A DNA stretch of 54,373 bases from a virus. Position 1 is the first letter of the stretch, and the number at the start of each line of letters is the position of its first letter. The position numbers and the translations under genes were made by a program. The notes under the pieces were generated by a model. It was not told where the DNA came from, made no database searches, and saw only the letters and a program-made list of their open reading frames with translations. Shown here in pieces: positions 24,350-46,793 of the stretch. The stretch is taken from positions 1 through 54,373 of the IMG/VR virus record IMGVR_UViG_3300027869_000008. The stretch is one strand, 5' to 3'.

Positions 24350-24571
24350 ATGGCTACAACTACGTTTACTGGGATCGTGTGGGAGCACGTACCCGCGGAC
24401 CAAAACGGGGGAGGTCCGGAGGATTTACTGATCGTATCTCTTTGTAATTGGGATGATATTCATATTCCAATTCCTAAAGGGAGACTTGAGGATTTTCCGA
24501 TTGATTCTCACGTGAAGATAACTGTGGAGGTTTGCACTGATATGGAAGGGGGGAGGTGTCAACGTGGGTAA
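24350..24571 (+). CDS. Small acidic beta-rich protein, 73 aa
   Basis: ATG at 24350 behind GGGGAG; starts MATTTFTGIVWEHVPADQNG. Beta-rich (LLIVSLCNWDDIHIPIP, HVKITVEVCTDME). Its stop overlaps the GTG of the 1176-aa gene, so the two are coupled. It may be a partner of that protein; no family is recognised. Confidence 0.65.
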   Translation: MATTTFTGIVWEHVPADQNGGGPEDLLIVSLCNWDDIHIPIPKGRLEDFPIDSHVKITVEVCTDMEGGRCQRG

Positions 24572-27500
24572 ACAGGATGGGAAGGTCGTAGGGGGGATTG
24601 AGGTGGGGAAGCAGTATGAGGGGGTCAAAGTAGTCTGGGCGGATGAGTCGGGGAGTATTTCATACCCTCCCCACCCAGAAGTTACTCATGGGAACTTATA
24701 TTGGTGTATATACCCAAGTGGGAAGAAAAGGATGTCACGTTGGGGATCGGGGTTTGCCACTGTGAAGGATTTGATGGGGGTGGAGGATTATGGGAATCCG
24801 AACCCATTTAAGGTTCCGTGGCCCTGGGCTGAGCTACATCCGGGGGAGGTTGACCCTTCGTTGGATTATCCTACCGAGTTTGCTATGCCCGCGTATACAA
24901 CGAAATCCAATCACACCATCGGCCCTGCGTATGTGGATGGAGTGCTCACTCCTGAGACCCAAACTCTAATGGTGAAGTGGAAGACGGGAGATCCGTATGA
25001 GGCTTGGAATAAACAATTTGATGAGTGGGAGGGGGGGTCTGTGACTACGACGAGTATGCCTAACACTACTAGCGGGGGGAAGCTTCATCCTGTTATCCCT
25101 GTGGGACCCGTGAGTCCATTCTATAATCCTAAGATTAAAGTATACGTGGGGGAGACGGATACTGAGACTGGAGTGAGGGTGGTGTGGATTGATCCTCCGG
25201 AGGTTGTGTCTCCTAAGTTGAAGGGATGCAAGGAGTGTTATGGACTGTGGTGTGTGTTCCCGGATGGGAGTAAGGGATTACAGACTACTAGTGAGGGGGA
25301 TTATAAGGATTGTTTAAATTGGCACCATAACAACTATGACAAGGGATGGCCCTGGAAACAATGGCATCCTGGGATTCCTGATCCTTCTTCTGTCTATGTA
25401 ATTCCACAAACGGGGAAGCCTACGGAGGCTCAGGTGGGGATGAAGGGGGTGTCAGAGGGGGAGGAGTTTTGGGTGGTGGGGATGGGGCCTGAGGCACATT
25501 ATTCGTGTGTTGGTTGGCTGAGTGATGGAGTGAATGCAACTATGGTGATTGGGGAGGATTTAGTAATTTATGGGAAGTACTTTAAGTCTCATGTTTCTGT
25601 GAATGATTTATGGAATGTTGGATATGACAAGATCCCCCCGAATCACTCAGAGATCGTAGCAGAGTTCAAGGGGCAGGAAAAGTGGAAGAATCCGCTTGGC
25701 GCAGGGGGGAGTGGAGAGCCTATGAAGACTGTGAAGGAGTTGGCTACGACTACACATAAGGCCATGGCGAAGACTAAGCCTACTATAGCTACTACTCTAC
25801 AGTGTATCAAGGCTATTAAGGAGTATTGTAAGGTTACACCTCCGAAGTATAGGAGTAATGCTGCCTGTTATACCTGGATTCTTGAGAATTACAAGATCAA
25901 GGCTTTCCCGGAGACTCATAAGTGGAGTCACCAGAAGACGGAGAAGTGTATTGAGGAGAATCTGCATAAGATATCAATAGATATCATTGCGGAGGTTCCA
26001 GAGGTATCATTGGGGACTGTAATGGCTGAATATAAGCCAACGTGGACTCCCCCTGTTATCACTCAGCTGAAACAGGCTAAGCCAATCCCTCCAACGTATG
26101 TTCCTAAGACTCAGAAGGAGCAGGGGTATATTGAGCTTGAAAAGGGGATGTACAAGAACTATGTACTGAAATATACGATGGAGCCATTCTATCAAGGGAT
26201 GGGGGAGATCTTCGCGAGGCCGTGTCCGGTGAGACCGAGACATGGATTTGTGGATTCGAGGGTGGTGCATACGATTGAGGAGTATGAGTCTCTCCGGGAG
26301 GAGGTGAGGAAGGCTGACCCCGAGGGGGAGATCATGCTGGTTCCGACGATCAAGGAACCGAAGTGCTCTGCGGTGTATACTCCGGGGAGGATTGAGGTGG
26401 GTGGGGGAAATGATGGGGCTACGGCGGGGAAGGGGGAGGTTGTTTCGTTTAGTATATCTCCGGAGAGGCTACAGGGGGTGAATTATAATAATGGGGGGAT
26501 TAAGGACACGCCGTACTTTGAGATTGTGTATCAAGGGAAGAGTGGGGATATTGATAATCCTACGAAGACTTGGATTACTCAGTTGAGGGATGGTCCTGAG
26601 CTGCCGAAGGGGAGTGAAGATTTTGTTCCTCCTGGGGATGGATTTGTGGTGAAGGAGATTGTGAAGGTGGAGCACCCGGAGGATTATTCACTACTGGAGT
26701 GGGAGGAGAGGGTGAAGGGGTTCCCTGAGGGGACTGTGGTGTGGTTCCCTAAGGGGAATTTAAGTAGTCATATTGTGATCCATGCTGTGGTGAAGGGGGT
26801 GCCGGTATTGACGACGAGGGAGCCGGTTATTGGGGAGAAACTCGTGGCGACTGTGGAGAAGGGGGAGGGGACCGTTAAGTGGAGAAGGGGGCAGGTAGAG
26901 GAAGGGTATGCGGCGGGGATGTTAATAAGGATGCCTGCACAACAAATGATGTGGTGTGTGATGGCGGGTTTACATAATGGGGTGTGGCTGTTCAGGGGGA
27001 GACCTTTTATGTTGGGTCTCACGGCGGCGCTGGGGGTGAGGCTGGCGGGGGCTTTGGGGCAGGGGGAGTTGAGATATTACACTAAGGCTGATACAGGATC
27101 GAAGCTCTGGAACACAGGGAAGTCTAGAGGGACTGTTTACCATGAGGTACTACAGGATTATAAATGGTCTCTAGAGTGTCTACGGTGGGCTCCCCTGCTT
27201 TATCATGCGAAGGGGCATTGGTCAGGGTCATTTGGGGGCCCGAAGTGGGGGAGTTCGATGGATGCAGCTGTGGCGGTGAATGATTCTGTGACCTCTGGGG
27301 AGACGGAGGAGATGGTTATTGAGAAGTTGAATATTTTAGTAAACTCCTGCCACAACGGGGGGAAGTTATTTACGAAGGTGGGCCGCCCGAATCAGATATC
27401 TAATAACATCGAGCTCGGGGCTGTGCTCGTGGCGCATTACTGGTGGGAGGCGCTGGGGATGGCGAGGGAGAGGGGGGAGGAGATTGCTCTTGTCAGGGGG

Positions 27501-28094
27501 GAGATGGGAGTTATCCAAGCTGTGAAGGATATGAAAGTGGCGGAGCTTTGTCTTCTTGAGAAGTTACAGGTGCTTGAGAAGAAGCCGCAGTATGTCTCAG
27601 AGAATTATCAGACCATCCCTAAACTACCTCCGAAGCCTAAGGTACCCATGGGGGTTAATTTGATTCAGATTAGGAATGTTAAGGAGGGATATGTAAGAGT
27701 ACAGTGGAGGTATGTTGATGGGGTGCATCACGAGTGGGATACGAAGGGTAGTCAACTCACGGAGGCGTTCTTCACATGGCTAAACGGAGAGAAAGAGGAC
27801 ACGGTAAAGACAGGTCCAAGCCTCGTCTCAGGGGCGGGGGTTCAGTATCCAATCGTTCTACAAGAGGGAGTGGGCGGGGGAAAGGTGTACGCCCCTCTCG
27901 GAAAACAAAGCACCGCAAACATTCTAAAGGAGATAAATCACCAATGTCTAATGAGTGGGTATCCTCAAATAAAGCCTCCCTCGTCGTGGACCTCGGAGTC
28001 ACCAGAGCTGTTCCCGGTGCCGGAGGCGACGCCGGTACCGGTGGAGATGGAGGCTCTGGAAACGGAGGAGCCGGAGTCCCCGGAGGACTTCTAA
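24564..28094 (+). CDS. Giant multidomain protein with PEP-utilising (phosphohistidine) mobile-domain motif
   Basis: 1176 residues from GTG 24564. Residues ~10-110 and ~190-280 are two copies of one domain (V.V.W.D, then LWC.(F/Y)P.G, then PWPW..(L/W)HPG..DPS); a related strand set recurs near 1030-1075. A helical part (~380-470) follows. At ~551-565 lies FARPCPVRPRHGFVDSR and at ~613-624 GGGNDGATAGKG, both compact conserved-looking motifs. At ~730-755 GNLSSHIVIHAVVKGVPVL matches the PEP-utilising-enzyme mobile domain, with His736 in the phosphorylated-His position. The C-terminal ~400 residues are mostly helical. PEP synthase-type enzymes pair this His domain with an ATP-grasp domain, which I suspect around residues 530-720 but cannot prove. 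The 3' 319 nt are also coding in another frame for the phosphatase gene. Confidence 0.7.
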   Translation: MGKQDGKVVGGIEVGKQYEGVKVVWADESGSISYPPHPEVTHGNLYWCIYPSGKKRMSRWGSGFATVKDLMGVEDYGNPNPFKVPWPWAELHPGEVDPSLDYPTEFAMPAYTTKSNHTIGPAYVDGVLTPETQTLMVKWKTGDPYEAWNKQFDEWEGGSVTTTSMPNTTSGGKLHPVIPVGPVSPFYNPKIKVYVGETDTETGVRVVWIDPPEVVSPKLKGCKECYGLWCVFPDGSKGLQTTSEGDYKDCLNWHHNNYDKGWPWKQWHPGIPDPSSVYVIPQTGKPTEAQVGMKGVSEGEEFWVVGMGPEAHYSCVGWLSDGVNATMVIGEDLVIYGKYFKSHVSVNDLWNVGYDKIPPNHSEIVAEFKGQEKWKNPLGAGGSGEPMKTVKELATTTHKAMAKTKPTIATTLQCIKAIKEYCKVTPPKYRSNAACYTWILENYKIKAFPETHKWSHQKTEKCIEENLHKISIDIIAEVPEVSLGTVMAEYKPTWTPPVITQLKQAKPIPPTYVPKTQKEQGYIELEKGMYKNYVLKYTMEPFYQGMGEIFARPCPVRPRHGFVDSRVVHTIEEYESLREEVRKADPEGEIMLVPTIKEPKCSAVYTPGRIEVGGGNDGATAGKGEVVSFSISPERLQGVNYNNGGIKDTPYFEIVYQGKSGDIDNPTKTWITQLRDGPELPKGSEDFVPPGDGFVVKEIVKVEHPEDYSLLEWEERVKGFPEGTVVWFPKGNLSSHIVIHAVVKGVPVLTTREPVIGEKLVATVEKGEGTVKWRRGQVEEGYAAGMLIRMPAQQMMWCVMAGLHNGVWLFRGRPFMLGLTAALGVRLAGALGQGELRYYTKADTGSKLWNTGKSRGTVYHEVLQDYKWSLECLRWAPLLYHAKGHWSGSFGGPKWGSSMDAAVAVNDSVTSGETEEMVIEKLNILVNSCHNGGKLFTKVGRPNQISNNIELGAVLVAHYWWEALGMARERGEEIALVRGEMGVIQAVKDMKVAELCLLEKLQVLEKKPQYVSENYQTIPKLPPKPKVPMGVNLIQIRNVKEGYVRVQWRYVDGVHHEWDTKGSQLTEAFFTWLNGEKEDTVKTGPSLVSGAGVQYPIVLQEGVGGGKVYAPLGKQSTANILKEINHQCLMSGYPQIKPPSSWTSESPELFPVPEATPVPVEMEALETEEPESPEDF

Positions 28095-29449
28095 CTGAAC
28101 GGGGGCGGATTCGTCTGTGGGGTGGGAGTAAGTTCGATATCAAATCGGGGGATGGAGATATCTTCATCAATCTTACCAGTGATAAGAAGTGGAGTGACTT
28201 TAAGTTCACTGGGAAGTGGAAGTGGTTGAATAAGTACTATGGTGTTCCACCGGAAGAGGTGGTGCTTAATTGGGAAGATATGAAGGCTCCCGTTTATCCC
28301 GCAAGCTTCTGGGTGGAGTTCTGGAAAGAGCTCAAGAGGGAGCTGTGGGCGAATGGAAAGCTGGAGCCTATCGAGGAGGCGTCTAAAGGGGAGATCGGCG
28401 CTCCTGAGGGCGCTGGAGCTCAAGGAGAGGGTGTCCAGCAGAGGGTCTTGGATGTTGTTTTTTACTGTACAGGTGGGAAGGGCAGGACCGGGACTGCTAT
28501 TGCTTGTCTGATGGTCACGGCGGCTCAGATTGATGGTTATAGGGCTATCTTGAAAGTCAGGAAGGCGTATAAGTCTGAGGCTGTGGAGACACAGGGGCAG
28601 GTGGATTATATTAAGAATCTCCAGGAGACACTGTATCCTCAGGCGTCTGAAGAGTGGGGGAAGGGGCAGGGTGGGAATGGGGAGAGTATTCCTGGGCCTT
28701 CGCAGTCGCATATGTTCAATGGATCTACAGGGTATAACTATAGCCAAGGGGATTATCTCTGCCGTGGTTATGGAGCGAGGAGTCCTCAGCCAACGCCACA
28801 GGTGGCGGGGCAGATTATTGTAGCTTTGATGGAGACTGTGGAAGGGGTCGTCAAGGCGGAGTGGGACTTCAAGGCGAAGGAGATTGTGATCTGGGAAGAC
28901 GAGACTGTCCAAACGGGGCCTGTCAAGGCTGTGATGTGTAAGTACAATGTCGATGGGTGGGATATTCGGATTAAGAATGGGAAGAATCTCAAGAAGTCCT
29001 CCTCCTCCTCTACAGGCTCCTCAGGTTCATCGAAGGAATCTAAAGACAAGGAGGAAGATACACTTACCAATTCCCATACGGGGAAGAGGACTACTGGGGA
29101 GTTTAAGAGCGTGGGTTCGTCGGGGTATCTCTCATCGATCTCGGGGGTCCAATCGAAGGGCCAGAAACTCCTCCCCTTCAAACAACAGTCTGTAATCGGT
29201 GGACCGAGGGAGCAGAAGATCAAGCGTGTCGCGGGGGTCCTCGCGATCTGTAGACACGAGCTCATGCAGATACCGAATGTTGACTGGGTGGGGCAGGGAT
29301 ATGGGGATATTCCTACATTGCGGCTGGGGACGTACCATAAGCACTATGATTCTATGAAGATCATCAATGCGGCTACGGCGATTATTGCGAAGTATGGGTA
29401 TGACATCGTGGGGGATGAGGGGGTGAATTTAGAGGTGACGAGGGGGTAG
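27776..29449 (+). CDS. Cysteine-based protein phosphatase (PTP/DSP-like) with basic N-terminus and extra C-terminal domain
   Basis: 557 residues from ATG 27776 (GGAGGCG site nine bases away); an internal ATG at 27944 behind AAAGGAG is an alternative. Residues 1-56 are strongly basic and 70-105 Gly-rich; both lie over the end of the 1176-aa gene. The catalytic loop is CTGGKGRTGT (Cys231, Arg237), the CX5R signature of tyrosine/dual-specificity/PTEN-like phosphatases. It is preceded by a candidate general-acid segment NWEDMKAP and followed by VRKAYKSEAVETQGQVDYI, which fits the family's C-terminal helices. A Ser-rich linker and a ~90-residue domain (about 465-557) follow. Likely a partner of the upstream phosphohistidine-domain protein. 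Confidence 0.75.
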   Translation: MAKRRERGHGKDRSKPRLRGGGSVSNRSTRGSGRGKGVRPSRKTKHRKHSKGDKSPMSNEWVSSNKASLVVDLGVTRAVPGAGGDAGTGGDGGSGNGGAGVPGGLLTERGRIRLWGGSKFDIKSGDGDIFINLTSDKKWSDFKFTGKWKWLNKYYGVPPEEVVLNWEDMKAPVYPASFWVEFWKELKRELWANGKLEPIEEASKGEIGAPEGAGAQGEGVQQRVLDVVFYCTGGKGRTGTAIACLMVTAAQIDGYRAILKVRKAYKSEAVETQGQVDYIKNLQETLYPQASEEWGKGQGGNGESIPGPSQSHMFNGSTGYNYSQGDYLCRGYGARSPQPTPQVAGQIIVALMETVEGVVKAEWDFKAKEIVIWEDETVQTGPVKAVMCKYNVDGWDIRIKNGKNLKKSSSSSTGSSGSSKESKDKEEDTLTNSHTGKRTTGEFKSVGSSGYLSSISGVQSKGQKLLPFKQQSVIGGPREQKIKRVAGVLAICRHELMQIPNVDWVGQGYGDIPTLRLGTYHKHYDSMKIINAATAIIAKYGYDIVGDEGVNLEVTRG

Positions 29450-39064: not shown

Positions 39065-41671
39065 ATGGTCTGTGGCCCTCACTGTAACGACTGCCCTCAG
39101 CAACCTATCGGGAATAAGTTCATCCCCCCCAGTGGCACAGGTTCCTCAGGGATGATGCTAGTTGCGGATAGTCCGTGGATCGATGAGATTCGTCTTGGTT
39201 ATCCCTTCGCTGGAGCAGCGGGGAGTATGTTAGACCGGATGCTCAAGAGAGCAGGAATCGACAGACATACTCTCACAATCGTTAACACGATCCAATGTCA
39301 ACCCCCACGTCTGGGGTGGATGGATAATTCCCATAAAATCCCTGAAGCCGCTGCCGCCATTAATCACTGCCGTCCCCACCTTGATGAGCTGATCGCTCAG
39401 CGGCAACCCAGGGTGATTGTTCCGATGGGGAATGTAGCCTTGGAGCGGGTGTGTGGAGTCAGGGGGATAGAAGAGAGGCAGGCGTATTATCACCCGACTC
39501 AGGGCTACGGGTGCTGGGCTATCCCCACCTTTCATCCCTCAAACATCCTACAGGGGAATCAGAAGTTCGTCCCCGCCTTTCTATTTGCACTACGTAGAGC
39601 TAAGGAAGCCGCAGAGGGAATAGGACTAGATCACTTTAATCTGATCCTCGATCCCTCCCCGATGGACCTAGAGGCATACATCGACTCCCTCCCTGAGCAC
39701 CTCGAATACATCGTCCTGGACATCGAGACTCCCGAGTCGTCATCTCTAGATGAAGATGAGCTAGAAGAAAGTGGCGTCAGCTTCAACATTGTGAGAGCTG
39801 GTTTCTGCGCCCGAGAGACTGAGGGAGTATCATTCCCCTGGACCCCCCCTTACATCCCCCTCCTCCAGAAGGTGATTGATCGAGCAGGATTCATTGTAGA
39901 GTGGGCCACGAATCACTTTGACTCGCGTAGACTTCGAGCTCACGGTATTACCATCCCCCCCGAGAAATCCGTCAGTGGAATGTGGCAGTGGCATTTCCTC
40001 CACTCTGATCTCCCCAAGGGCCTCGGTAAGGTAGCTCCCTTCTTTATGAGGCTGGAGCCCTGGAAACATCTATCCAGCGCCCAACCAGCCTACTACAACG
40101 CAATGGACCAAGCAGTTCCCTTCACGATCTGGAAGAAGTGTGAGGAGGCTCTGCGTAGAGAGGGGAGGTGGGATGCTTATCGTAGACATATCCTCGACAT
40201 GGAAGGTCCTTTCGCGGAGATGCACTCCGCTGGGATTCTCATCGATACAGTGGCCCAGGATAAGCTAAAGGGAGAGCTTGAGGAGGACTACAAGGTAGAG
40301 GTCTCGAAGATCCAACCTCTCATCCCTGAGAGTATCTTGAAGGAAAAACTCTGGAAACGCCCCCCGAAGGATATGCAGGGAGTTCAGTCTAGGATCATCG
40401 ACTGCTTCGTCTGCGACGCCACAGGTCTCCAAGAGGGAGGCACGAAGCCTTGTAAGACTTGCAAGGCCACCGGGAAGGTCACAGAGTACTTCAAGAAGCT
40501 CCCCTTTAACCCACATGGGAGCGCCCCGGATACGAAGAACCTAGCCCGTCACCTAGGGCTAAAGCTCCCCAAGTCTAGAGAAACTGGCGACGACACCGCC
40601 CAGGAGAAGCACCTGAAGGTCTTCGCGAGGAAGTTTCCGATCTTCTTGGACATCCTACGAGCTAGGAAGATCTCTAAGATGGGGAGTGCGTACATTTGGC
40701 CTACGGATAGCCAAGGTAGAATCCATACGACCTTTGGCTTTCATCCATCGACGCTTCGTAAGTCAAGCCGCTCCCCCGCGTTACAGACGATCCCCAAGAG
40801 AGATCCCATCTTAGCTGCGAGGGTGAGGAGGACGATTAAGTCCTCCCCTGGCCATAGATTACTAACAGCAGACTCCGCCGCAATCGAAGCCGTCCTAACA
40901 GGATACTGGGCTAAGTCGAAGCCCCTCATGCGCTTATCTACAGCGGGTATCCACGATTGGCTCCTCGCGAAGAAGCTGGGCCAACCGATCCCCTTAGACA
41001 TCCCTGATGACGAATTAAGGGCCCGTTGTAAGGCCGCCAAGAAACTAAACCCAGTCCTGCGGGAAATGTGTAAGCGCGTGATCCACATGTCAAACTATCT
41101 TGCGACCCCCAATCGCATCCTCGAAGAATACCCCGATGACTTCAAGTCTCTAAAGGAAGCCAGGGAGCTCCAGGATTTCTACCTTGATACTGAACCTGGG
41201 CAGGACCTTCGTAGATGGCACAAGCAAACCTGCGACGAAGCCTCCTATCACACCTATCTCGACAATAGCTTCGGCTACCGTCATTACTTCTTTGATGTCT
41301 ACACCTTCAGCTACTCCCGCTATCGATCCCTTAAGTCAAAGGGGATGTGTGATGCGGATGCCCGTAGCGGCGCGTGGACCTGGGGAGATGACGCGAAGAG
41401 GGCCATCGCTTTCCGGCCTCAGTCGGATGCCTCAGCGATCCAGACCCTCATCGTCCTGTGGCTCCGTGAACACTACCCTGAGATCGCCCAGTGGCTTCGA
41501 CTCCTGATCCATGATGAACTCGTCTTTGACATGCCGGAGGCTCTCATTGAACCATCGGTCCCCATCGTCAAAGAAGCAATGGAGCAACCGTGGCCCCAGC
41601 TTCAAGGACTTCGGATAGGATGTGAAATGAAGGTAGGATTGAATCTAGCAGATATGGAGGTGATAGCATGA
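39065..41671 (+). CDS. DNA polymerase, family A, fused to an N-terminal UDG-like domain and with a zinc-knuckle insertion
   Basis: 868 residues. Residues 1-200 match the family-4 uracil-DNA-glycosylase pattern: Cys7/Cys10, YPFAGAAG, NTIQCQPP, NHCRPHL and TFHPSNIL, so four Cys for a 4Fe-4S cluster are present. The usual GEAPG catalytic loop reads VADSPW. The 3'-5' exonuclease has DIET (Asp219/Glu221), NHFDSRRL and YYNAMD. A CFVC...CKTC knuckle (Cys447/450/463/466) is inserted before the polymerase domain. Polymerase motifs: A DSAAIE (Asp603), B RxxxK (Arg666/Lys670, with His674 where family A usually has Phe or Tyr), and C HDE (816-818). SPO1-type polymerases have a comparable UDG-like front. 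No 5'-3' exonuclease domain. Confidence 0.9.
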   Translation: MVCGPHCNDCPQQPIGNKFIPPSGTGSSGMMLVADSPWIDEIRLGYPFAGAAGSMLDRMLKRAGIDRHTLTIVNTIQCQPPRLGWMDNSHKIPEAAAAINHCRPHLDELIAQRQPRVIVPMGNVALERVCGVRGIEERQAYYHPTQGYGCWAIPTFHPSNILQGNQKFVPAFLFALRRAKEAAEGIGLDHFNLILDPSPMDLEAYIDSLPEHLEYIVLDIETPESSSLDEDELEESGVSFNIVRAGFCARETEGVSFPWTPPYIPLLQKVIDRAGFIVEWATNHFDSRRLRAHGITIPPEKSVSGMWQWHFLHSDLPKGLGKVAPFFMRLEPWKHLSSAQPAYYNAMDQAVPFTIWKKCEEALRREGRWDAYRRHILDMEGPFAEMHSAGILIDTVAQDKLKGELEEDYKVEVSKIQPLIPESILKEKLWKRPPKDMQGVQSRIIDCFVCDATGLQEGGTKPCKTCKATGKVTEYFKKLPFNPHGSAPDTKNLARHLGLKLPKSRETGDDTAQEKHLKVFARKFPIFLDILRARKISKMGSAYIWPTDSQGRIHTTFGFHPSTLRKSSRSPALQTIPKRDPILAARVRRTIKSSPGHRLLTADSAAIEAVLTGYWAKSKPLMRLSTAGIHDWLLAKKLGQPIPLDIPDDELRARCKAAKKLNPVLREMCKRVIHMSNYLATPNRILEEYPDDFKSLKEARELQDFYLDTEPGQDLRRWHKQTCDEASYHTYLDNSFGYRHYFFDVYTFSYSRYRSLKSKGMCDADARSGAWTWGDDAKRAIAFRPQSDASAIQTLIVLWLREHYPEIAQWLRLLIHDELVFDMPEALIEPSVPIVKEAMEQPWPQLQGLRIGCEMKVGLNLADMEVIA

Positions 41672-44019: not shown

Positions 44020-44826
44020 TTACTGAAAGAGGACCGAGCAACCACTTGGAGTGGCCGAATTAGAACCCGCCGAGTTCACAATCTGAAAATCAACCAAGTC
44101 TCCTGCATTTGTAGAAACTGAATGTGATGTATCTCCGTACAGCCCTGCTCCTGAGCCGGCTGAAATTGTAAACGTCAGCGCCGTACTAGATGCCGAACAA
44201 GTGAGTGGGGAACCTGACGGGGTGCAACTTCGCAAGGTCACGGTTAAAGTACTACTTGCCCCCTGTGCGGTTGCAGTGTTGCAATACAAATTAGACCATG
44301 TACCCGCACGGCCCATCGGAAATTGGCGGTTGGCCTCAGTCCCAGACCAAGCGGAAATACTACTCGCTGAGCTTGCCGTGCCGAGAATTGAGCCTGCATA
44401 CACGGTCGCACCAGAGCCGAGGAAAGTAGCGTTCACGAATATCTCAAAAACTTGTCCTCCCCCCGTTGGCCCCGTCGCTCCCGTGGAGCCGGTCGCGCCA
44501 TTTGCCCCATTCGTACCGTTAGTCCCGTTGGTCCCATTTGCTCCCGTTGCTCCTGTTGCGCCATTGGAACCATTGGTTCCATTCGTACCATTAGTTCCAT
44601 TAGCTCCTGTTGGTCCGGTAGCGCCGGTGGCCCCCGTCGCTCCCCCTCCCCCACTCAAACACCCCACATTCCCAAATGAATCAATACTCCCTACTGCATT
44701 CGGTGTACAATTCCCCCCAGAGATCTGAGGCATGGGGGAGAAGGCTGTGAGGAGGATGATGGCTACTAGAATCAAAGCCATGACCACCCAGCCAAATTCC
44801 CACCGATATTTCTTAAGAGTACCCAT
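44020..44826 (-). CDS. Membrane-anchored collagen-like appendage protein
   Basis: 268 residues. N-terminal span (WVVMALILVAIILLTAF), then about 24 Gly-X-Y triplets (GATGATGATGPTGANGTNG type, residues ~60-125), then a beta-rich C-terminal domain with four Cys. Collagen-like repeats form trimeric stalks in phage fibres. The N-terminal hydrophobic span is unexpected for a cytoplasm-assembled fibre. Start overlaps the preceding stop (TAATG). Confidence 0.8.
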   Translation of the reverse strand: MGTLKKYRWEFGWVVMALILVAIILLTAFSPMPQISGGNCTPNAVGSIDSFGNVGCLSGGGGATGATGATGPTGANGTNGTNGTNGSNGATGATGANGTNGTNGTNGANGATGSTGATGPTGGGQVFEIFVNATFLGSGATVYAGSILGTASSASSISAWSGTEANRQFPMGRAGTWSNLYCNTATAQGASSTLTVTLRSCTPSGSPLTCSASSTALTFTISAGSGAGLYGDTSHSVSTNAGDLVDFQIVNSAGSNSATPSGCSVLFQ

Positions 44827-46793
44827 TAGATCGTTGTGTATTGCAATAGCACGATCCTAAGATCGTAGCTAACTGTCCCTACGACGGTCGTGGTGAATGT
44901 GATTGATGTTCCTGCGAGGGCATTGAAGGCTGGAGAGAGGAAACCTTGGCTTCCTGAACCTAAGGTCCCACAAGTCAAAGCTGAGCCGAGACTGGAACTC
45001 TGGGCAGTGTTACTAGTATCGGTCCAATTAATCGTCATTGTCACCGTGCCCGTCCCTGAGATGCAATCCATCGGGGCGATCACTTGGTAGGAAGCATTAG
45101 TGGGGACACTAGCGAGTAAGTTCGTGCTAGATATCGAAGATGTTTGGGCTGTGGATACTGAAGTACTGACGATGATTGGAACTCCAGCAGCTACTTGGGT
45201 TGTAGAATTGGGGAGAGCGGCGGTCAGGAGGTTCTTAAGGTAATACTTGTTCGCGACGATGGACTCCCCGAGAGCATTAGGGTGAATACCATCCGGGTTG
45301 AAGTACAGAGCGTTCGTGTTCGCCCCGGTGATTCCAATATCAGGATCGGCTCCTTGGTTTGAGATGATGTCACCGTAGATCAAACTGGGATTAGCTAGCA
45401 GAAGGGCGTTCGCTGCTTTTCGCACGGTATCATTACAACCTGTGCAGGGGAGGATTGTGGCTGTGATGACCTTCAGGGTGACACTTGCGGTGGTTGCTGC
45501 GGAGCGTTGAGCCGCAACGTATGTAGCAATGCGGCTAGCGATGGTGGCTGCATTGACACTGTTGAGTAGATCATTTGTACCACATTGTACCGTTAGGACA
45601 TTCACCCCATAACTTGTGCTGTAGAATCCACTTGGATCATCAAGGCCGTTGCACTGTAATCCTCCGTGACCAAAGTTCATAATCTTATAAGTTGGGTTGA
45701 TCTGCTTAGCTTGGGTTACCCATCCACGACTACTAGATACCAATCCGGGGGGCTGGAGAGTTAGAGAATCACCCACTGCTGCCACAAAAACGGAGCCATT
45801 GTTATTGAACGCCGTCCCGTAGTGACGTTGGCGGTATTGCTTAAGGAGAGTAATCTCCGTTTGAGTCAAGGCTCGGTTGTAGATCAGGACTTCATAGATA
45901 TTAGCATTCAAGGCGAAAGGGTCAGAGAATCCGTCGAAGTATGGGGAGTACCCCATATATCCACCAATTACGGTAGCTGATGTCACCCCAGGCGTTCCGA
46001 CTTGAACGCCAACATCTTCAGTCCATACTTTGGCTGACGAGCCTGATACGGTAATTCCCGTTAGCAAGGGCTCGACGGTGCTTGGGGCTTGAGATGCGGA
46101 GCTCAGGTTAGATCCGCTGGAATGAATATTCAGGTCACCAAAGAAGTTATAGTTCGTTAGTACTGTCAGCGTATTGCTCGCACCAAGTTGTACGATAGTC
46201 CCCGTAGGGTCTTGGGATAGATTCTCTCCGATGACGAAAATTGATACAGAATTCGTGTTCACAGACATCCCAGAGGGTAGGTTCAAGCTAGCCTTGGTCG
46301 CCGTACCAGTGCACAACCCTGCTGGAGTCGATGCACTATTCCCTGTAAATAACACCGCCGGGAGTCCCGAGATGGTTGCGAGGTTATAGACTGGCCCCCC
46401 ATTATTTGCGGACACAATTGGTAGCGCGTTTCCGGACGAATCTAACCAGGTCGTGACGCCAGCACAAGAGGATAGAGCTAAGGCGGAGCTACGATAATAT
46501 GGGATTAGTCCACTTACAACTGGGGCCATTTCGGTCCACAAGCCATTCTCCAAAAGGCCCACAGGGTTGCCTGAACTATACCCACCTTTCCCTGCGACAG
46601 CATTAGCTGTCTTGCAAGGAGCAGTGTAGACATTACAGGCATTTGAATCATTCCCGTTAACAGGATCAACAAACCAAGTGAATTGGGGATTCGTCTGATT
46701 AGCCGCTCCCCCTGAGCCTGTACCGGGATTATTGATCTGCGCGGAGCACAGGGAGGCTAGGAGGATTATGGATACTAATAGAACTCGTTTCAT
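44826..46793 (-). CDS. Exported tail-spike-like protein with SGNH/GDSL esterase domain
   Basis: 655 residues. A Sec-type signal peptide (MKRVLLVSIILLASLCSAQ) is followed by a short region, a LamG/concanavalin-like domain (~100-335) and an SGNH hydrolase (~340-525): block I VGDSLTL, a Gly-rich block (NFGHGG), block III GTNDL and block V DGIHPN (Asp/His). Such esterases deacetylate capsule or exopolysaccharide. The last ~130 residues are a beta-rich module. Within a phage tail region this would be a receptor or capsule-degrading protein, but the signal peptide implies it enters the periplasm or outer membrane first. Confidence 0.85.
   Translation of the reverse strand: MKRVLLVSIILLASLCSAQINNPGTGSGGAANQTNPQFTWFVDPVNGNDSNACNVYTAPCKTANAVAGKGGYSSGNPVGLLENGLWTEMAPVVSGLIPYYRSSALALSSCAGVTTWLDSSGNALPIVSANNGGPVYNLATISGLPAVLFTGNSASTPAGLCTGTATKASLNLPSGMSVNTNSVSIFVIGENLSQDPTGTIVQLGASNTLTVLTNYNFFGDLNIHSSGSNLSSASQAPSTVEPLLTGITVSGSSAKVWTEDVGVQVGTPGVTSATVIGGYMGYSPYFDGFSDPFALNANIYEVLIYNRALTQTEITLLKQYRQRHYGTAFNNNGSVFVAAVGDSLTLQPPGLVSSSRGWVTQAKQINPTYKIMNFGHGGLQCNGLDDPSGFYSTSYGVNVLTVQCGTNDLLNSVNAATIASRIATYVAAQRSAATTASVTLKVITATILPCTGCNDTVRKAANALLLANPSLIYGDIISNQGADPDIGITGANTNALYFNPDGIHPNALGESIVANKYYLKNLLTAALPNSTTQVAAGVPIIVSTSVSTAQTSSISSTNLLASVPTNASYQVIAPMDCISGTGTVTMTINWTDTSNTAQSSSLGSALTCGTLGSGSQGFLSPAFNALAGTSITFTTTVVGTVSYDLRIVLLQYTTI

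Follow-up and report, generated by a model that had tools for sequence, protein, structure and literature searches.

The giant protein gene and its phosphatase neighbour

The window analysed here (54,373 nucleotides) covers positions 1 to 54,373 of IMG/VR virus record IMGVR_UViG_3300027869_000008, and it harbors on its plus strand two overlapping genes, the first encoding a giant protein of 1176 residues (24564..28094, with a GTG start and a Shine-Dalgarno-like GGAGG ahead of it) and the second a phosphatase with a CX5R loop. The pair belongs to a real and widespread phage gene set, in which a known enzyme design is combined with a domain without known fold. A first-pass annotation had recognized a swivelling-histidine phosphotransfer enzyme accompanied by a CX5R phosphatase, and this core stands, both open reading frames (ORFs) and all quoted motifs being located where it had placed them, while the domain termed here HNxG and the occurrence of the genes in cultured phages had escaped it. 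The giant protein is constructed of a duplicated N-terminal module, an ATP-grasp domain, a swivel His domain, the HNxG domain, and a C-terminal tail. Sequence searches of Pfam, PHROGs, NCBIfam, and the PDB assigned it to no family, and no Pfam or NCBIfam model describes the window-type family, which is characterized by the signature RPCPxxPRHGF.

The miniature ATP-grasp domain (residues ~516-680, 26109..26603, plus strand), supported by invariant columns, an AlphaFold2 (AF2) model, and Foldseek, is marked by TQKxxG with Lys518, RPCPxxPRHGF with Arg552, GATxxG, Glu653, and QLR with Gln673 and Arg675; the two compact motifs of the protein, FARPCPVRPRHGF and GGGNDGATAGKG, are situated at 550 and 613. 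It is followed by the swivel phosphohistidine domain (residues ~682-765, 26607..26858, plus strand), supported by the AF2 model and by hhalign comparison with phage swivel domains and controls, where His736 (26769..26771, plus strand), the predicted phosphate carrier, lies in the swivel-type motif GNLSSHIVIHA, is invariant in all relatives covering the position, and aligns with the SH of swivels of the pyruvate phosphate dikinase (PPDK) type. The AF2 model of residues 501-1029, built from 39 sequences (pLDDT 84.6, pTM 0.84), comprises a mini ATP-grasp, a swivel His domain with the strand-loop-SH-helix order around His736, and a C-terminal all-helical domain. ATP-grasp enzymes of the PDB were matched by Foldseek with probabilities of 0.99-1.00 and E-values of 0.006-0.05, and the ATP-binding domain that the first-pass annotation could not prove was in this way recovered as a fold assignment. 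The swivel identity of the His736 region is a profile link, with E 5.6e-5 and a score of 35 against PPDK-type swivels by hhalign, compared with scores of 8.6-20.4 for 14 of 15 control families and 25.3 for the remaining one; PF00391 stays below its cut-off in the window family.

The residues K518, E653, Q673, R675, His736, E835, R837, GG891-892, W895, H930, and K938 are invariant or near-invariant in ~40 relatives, and since all of them lie outside the pattern by which the relatives were retrieved, this conservation exceeds chance, while the invariance of RPCPxxPRHGF follows from the pattern itself. The best viral fold match of the model is gp139 of Bacillus phage G, which is itself PPDK-like (38% to the PPDK of phage DLP5, E 1e-49). 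The gp139 gene (L179, 4713-5810) is found beside an FtsZ-like gene, and neither HNxG nor a phosphatase occurs within 5 kb of it.

The HNxG domain (residues ~771-970, 26874..27473, plus strand), a name introduced here for the all-helical domain, is the domain that makes up the standalone phage proteins of phrog_20946, to which it was aligned by hhalign (prob 98, E 7e-14). It carries the E-x-R, GGxxW, HN, and K signature of that family in the form of Glu835, Arg837, GG891-892, Trp895, His930-Asn931, and Lys938, and the Glu, Arg, Gly-Gly, Trp, His, Asn, and Lys are 99-100% conserved across ~107 HNxG sequences. A standalone HNxG (DLP5 gp142) was modelled with a pLDDT of 94.4, and neither its model (best E 1.3, prob 0.09) nor its sequence found a match in the PDB; phrog_20946 has no Pfam family. 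HNxG is the phosphatase's conserved partner and likely provides the acceptor site. In the window, Tyr838 (27075-27077) replaces the near-invariant His in the ExRH of HNxG, and four other HNxG proteins (L066, L095, L096, and L121) possess long Cys-rich, zinc-ribbon-like N-terminal extensions.

The maximal phosphatase ORF of 557 residues (27776..29449, plus strand) contains the phosphate-binding loop CTGGKGRTGT (28466..28495, plus strand) with Cys231, and a predicted general-acid Asp168 (28277..28279, plus strand) in a column that is 100% Asp among 131 sequences; the protein scores 27.9 bits against Pfam PTP-SAK, where the cut-off is 27. It shares the CX5R loop and the general-acid Asp with the PTP-SAK and DSP-like phosphatases (PF22784, PF22785), whereas the phosphatases of the gene set differ from these in their long low-complexity flanks and their constant HNxG partner. 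The loop Cys holds in the long ORF as the first-pass annotation had it, but the start at 27776 is doubtful: although that ATG also has GGAGG upstream, the gene probably begins at 27944 (27944..29449, plus strand), because AAAGGAG precedes the latter ATG and the codon-position GC of the overlap follows the frame of the first gene. The preferred start gives 501 residues, a 151-bp overlap with the giant gene, and Cys175 as the loop Cys. At 28478-28480 of the window, Lys replaces the near-invariant His of the CxGGHGR loop.

Conservation and architectures of the gene set

When the window protein was compared by tblastn with 50,697 phage records, the sole relative was a remote one from a Manatee Spring phage (four near-identical records), matching at residues 513-746, and there too the following gene is annotated as a dual-specificity phosphatase (DSP). 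Because neither the full-length protein, searched against IMG/VR, nor a two-sequence alignment used as the query brought up any relative, relatives were retrieved through a DNA pattern for RPCPxxPRHGF, which yielded 39 IMG/VR stretches, every one in an ORF with the same signature. In bacterial genome contigs the same pattern was hit nine times, and four of these stretches (L043, L048, L049, and L050) are clearly related; the window-type pair is present on the contigs of the last three (two Acidobacteria, one Chloroflexi).

The pairing of the His enzyme with the CX5R phosphatase is conserved across distant phages, as expressed in counts, not probabilities, for loci that are phylogenetically non-independent. 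Of the ATP-grasp-motif loci, the window and the Manatee phage included, 27 have a downstream flank of 600 bp or more, and in all 27 a phosphatase is adjacent (downstream in 26, upstream in one). A regular-expression scan for the phosphatase passed over four loci, three of which were recovered with a hidden Markov model, whereas the flank available for the fourth (L029) is just 524 bp long; the L029 contig contains a phosphatase match as L061. Of the 54 loci found solely via the phosphatase loop, 53 have HNxG immediately upstream of the phosphatase, and 23 of the 28 with at least 5 kb of upstream sequence contain a phosphohistidine gene. PF01326 or PF00391 was detected in 22 of 26 whole records of at least 30 kb in which the fetched locus lacked the full kinase gene (five of them previously known as swivel-only loci). 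The first-pass annotation had named homologues without the His and the CX5R motif as the finding that would speak against it, and this objection falls because the homologues keep both.

In the 50,697 phage records, HNxG occurs in 40 and PPDK-like matches in 56, and the hosts of the latter (33 Vibrio, 4 Stenotrophomonas, 2 Rhizobium, 1 Rhodobacter) equal the HNxG host counts, the overlap being judged from these counts and most accessions. The remaining PPDK-like records consist of Bacillus phage G (two copies of one genome) and 14 unannotated Listeria, Enterococcus, and fecal records (OR848379, OR846604, MT839606, and similar in INPHARED), which are mostly short, may be bacterial DNA, and were set aside.

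Cultured phages of Vibrio, Stenotrophomonas, Rhizobium, and Rhodobacter carry each part as a gene of its own, in the order PPDK-like, phosphatase, HNxG, often a second phosphatase, and then DNA polymerase I. In Rhodobacter phage RcZahn, gp6 is the PPDK-like protein, gp10 the HNxG protein, and gp9 and gp11 are the phosphatases. The second phosphatase is not evident in every such phage, and in several of them phosphatases flank HNxG on both sides. It is annotated as 'thymidylate synthase' in L161 (9014-9802) and similar loci, as well as in phrog_17568; a ThyX identity was dropped, since Pfam places it in DSP-type families. In other forms, HNxG is adjoined by a mini ATP-grasp-His protein or by a swivel-only protein of ~110-138 residues (L060, L066, L077, L085, L092, L095, L113, L119, and L127).

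HNxG is standalone in siphophages, whereas in the window it is fused to the kinase half, where it occupies the position of the PPDK barrel. A classical PPDK half is fused to HNxG in the same order in L069 and L091. On the HNxG tree, which is poorly resolved, the window type clusters together (36 rows, SH-aLRT 96) apart from L069 and L091, and on account of this separation the fusion of a kinase half to HNxG probably arose on two or more occasions, with the parts in the same order each time.

A predicted phosphorelay and its rivals

The separate phage 'PPDKs' contain PPDK_N (PF01326) and a swivel. A whole-record search for the phosphoenolpyruvate (PEP)/pyruvate barrel (PF02896) found none in 12 phage records or in the window but was positive for 14/14 control genomes, and the phage PPDK profile matches a solved PPDK over ~4-534 only (E 1e-186), ending with the His domain. 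The gene set shares with PPDK and PEP synthase an ATP-grasp followed by a swivel, whose catalytic His is present in the window, but has HNxG in place of their barrel, and the ATP-grasp of the window is far smaller than theirs and missed by PF01326.

Other dikinases also provide parallels. Rifampin phosphotransferase (RPH) combines an ATP-grasp and a swivel His domain with a distinct domain that binds the acceptor (PMC4844700); its His domain is C-terminal and its acceptor domain central, whereas HNxG stands C-terminal to the swivel in the window, and no RIF-binding-like acceptor domain was recognized in the HNxG model, which is without a PDB match at the E-value given above. The transferred phosphate is gripped in RPH by Arg, Glu, Lys, and Gln (PMC4844700), a set that the invariant Glu, Arg, His, Asn, and Lys of HNxG resemble. 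In the two-component dikinase HpeHI the same parts are split over genes, as in CreHI and PpsAB, and a later Hpe step takes the phosphate off (PMC12167813). HpeH, however, joins the swivel to a RIF-binding-like domain, whereas in the phages the swivel either stands free or is attached to the ATP-grasp, and HNxG matches no solved fold. As RPH and HpeHI show, the swivel design remains workable when its acceptor domain is exchanged and when its parts are distributed over several genes.

The phage genes quite probably represent a swivelling dikinase module with a new acceptor domain and a partner phosphatase. The ATP-grasp domain would take phosphate from ATP, the swivelling domain would carry it as phosphohistidine on His736, and HNxG, replacing the pyruvate/PEP barrel, would bind the acceptor, its invariant Glu, Arg, His, Asn, and Lys forming a putative second active site. 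The CX5R phosphatase may have as its substrate either this phosphorylated product or an intermediate further along, which would make the phosphate a removable handle or switch; the signalling role proposed by the first-pass annotation is one option among several. The chances are about even that the gene set constitutes an unrecognised class of phage phosphorelay, distributed over many unrelated tailed phages, in which the new fold HNxG is the phosphoacceptor or the acceptor-binding site and the phosphatase is dedicated to it. If so, the relay would target either a host switch or a phosphorylated compound of a new kind made by the phage.

Several observations weigh against a swivelling dikinase. 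PF01326 is without any match in the window at E<=1, and the sequence similarity between the mini ATP-grasp and PPDK_N is only suggestive (E 0.02), the catalytic Glu and the Q-x-R lining up in this weak alignment. The Foldseek E-values for ATP-grasp are weak (best 0.0055) despite the high probabilities, and PPDK appears only at rank 20 of the PDB list (prob 0.47). Some swivel-only records have no detected ATP-grasp, PPDK_N not being found in those of L066, L077, L092, and L095, and four records of at least 30 kb (those of L093, L103, L121, and L129, 41-82 kb) hold HNxG and the phosphatase with no detected phosphohistidine gene. Biochemical evidence was found for no family member.

Among the alternatives to the dikinase module, the best surviving, unlikely as it is, holds that the relay phosphorylates HNxG itself (e.g., at His930) or a host protein and that this mark is removed by the phosphatase. 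Switches are classically built from a kinase and a phosphatase, the association of the phosphatase with HNxG (53/54) is tighter than with the kinase half (23/28), and the presence of phosphatases on both sides of HNxG in several cultured phages also accords with this idea; CX5R enzymes of this class, however, seldom act on phosphohistidine, and the HNxG residues resemble a small-molecule phosphate site such as that of RPH.

Somewhat less probable again is the phosphorylation and dephosphorylation of DNA, RNA, or a nucleotide, for instance in base modification or end repair, to which the adjacency of DNA polymerase I in cultured phages and the location of the window module within a few genes of a RepA-like ATPase and a PD-(D/E)XK nuclease might point, some DSP-superfamily enzymes being known to work on RNA ends. 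Closeness to a polymerase is nevertheless common in phage genomes, and the neighbourhoods revealed no modification enzyme that recurs, their clustering giving no functional hint except DNA polymerase and portal, many clusters being antisense ORFs. That the ATP-grasp is a ligase and the SH motif a look-alike agrees with the D-Ala-D-Ala ligases at the top of the Foldseek PDB matches, but is very improbable in view of the invariance of the SH motif, its profile relationship to true swivels, and its replacement within this gene set by PPDK halves of the classical kind or by genes for a swivel alone. Least credible is the description of phage 'PPDKs' as glycolytic auxiliary metabolic genes that make or use PEP, as published for Vibrio phages (PMC12038007, PMC9229204), which draws on the clear PPDK_N and PEP-utiliser domains of the separate versions but is contradicted by the missing barrel and by a PPDK similarity that stops where the His domain ends, and leaves the constant HNxG and phosphatase partners unexplained.

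No description of the module was found in the open-access PMC papers searched, which do contain the PPDK annotations; the gene set has been overlooked in cultured and uncultured phages alike, owing to the labels given to its parts ('pyruvate phosphate dikinase', 'thymidylate synthase', 'tyrosine phosphatase', and 'hypothetical'). Its recognition corrects the published glycolytic claims, offers in HNxG, whose confidently predicted fold has no PDB match, a target for structural work, and raises the testable question of what the relay phosphorylates. As cultured phages carry the module, removal of its genes is feasible.

N-terminal repeats and other genes of the window

The duplication of the N-terminal module, already proposed in the first-pass annotation, was borne out by self-BLASTP of the giant protein, in which copy 1 (residues ~20-102, 24621..24869, plus strand) and copy 2 (residues ~203-278, 25170..25397, plus strand) are 32.5% identical across 83 aligned columns (E 3e-8); the other loci collected contain no relative of either. 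Elsewhere in the window, a uracil-DNA glycosylase domain is fused to DNA polymerase A (39065-41671), and a 655-residue protein with a GDSL lipase domain is encoded on the minus strand (44826-46793).

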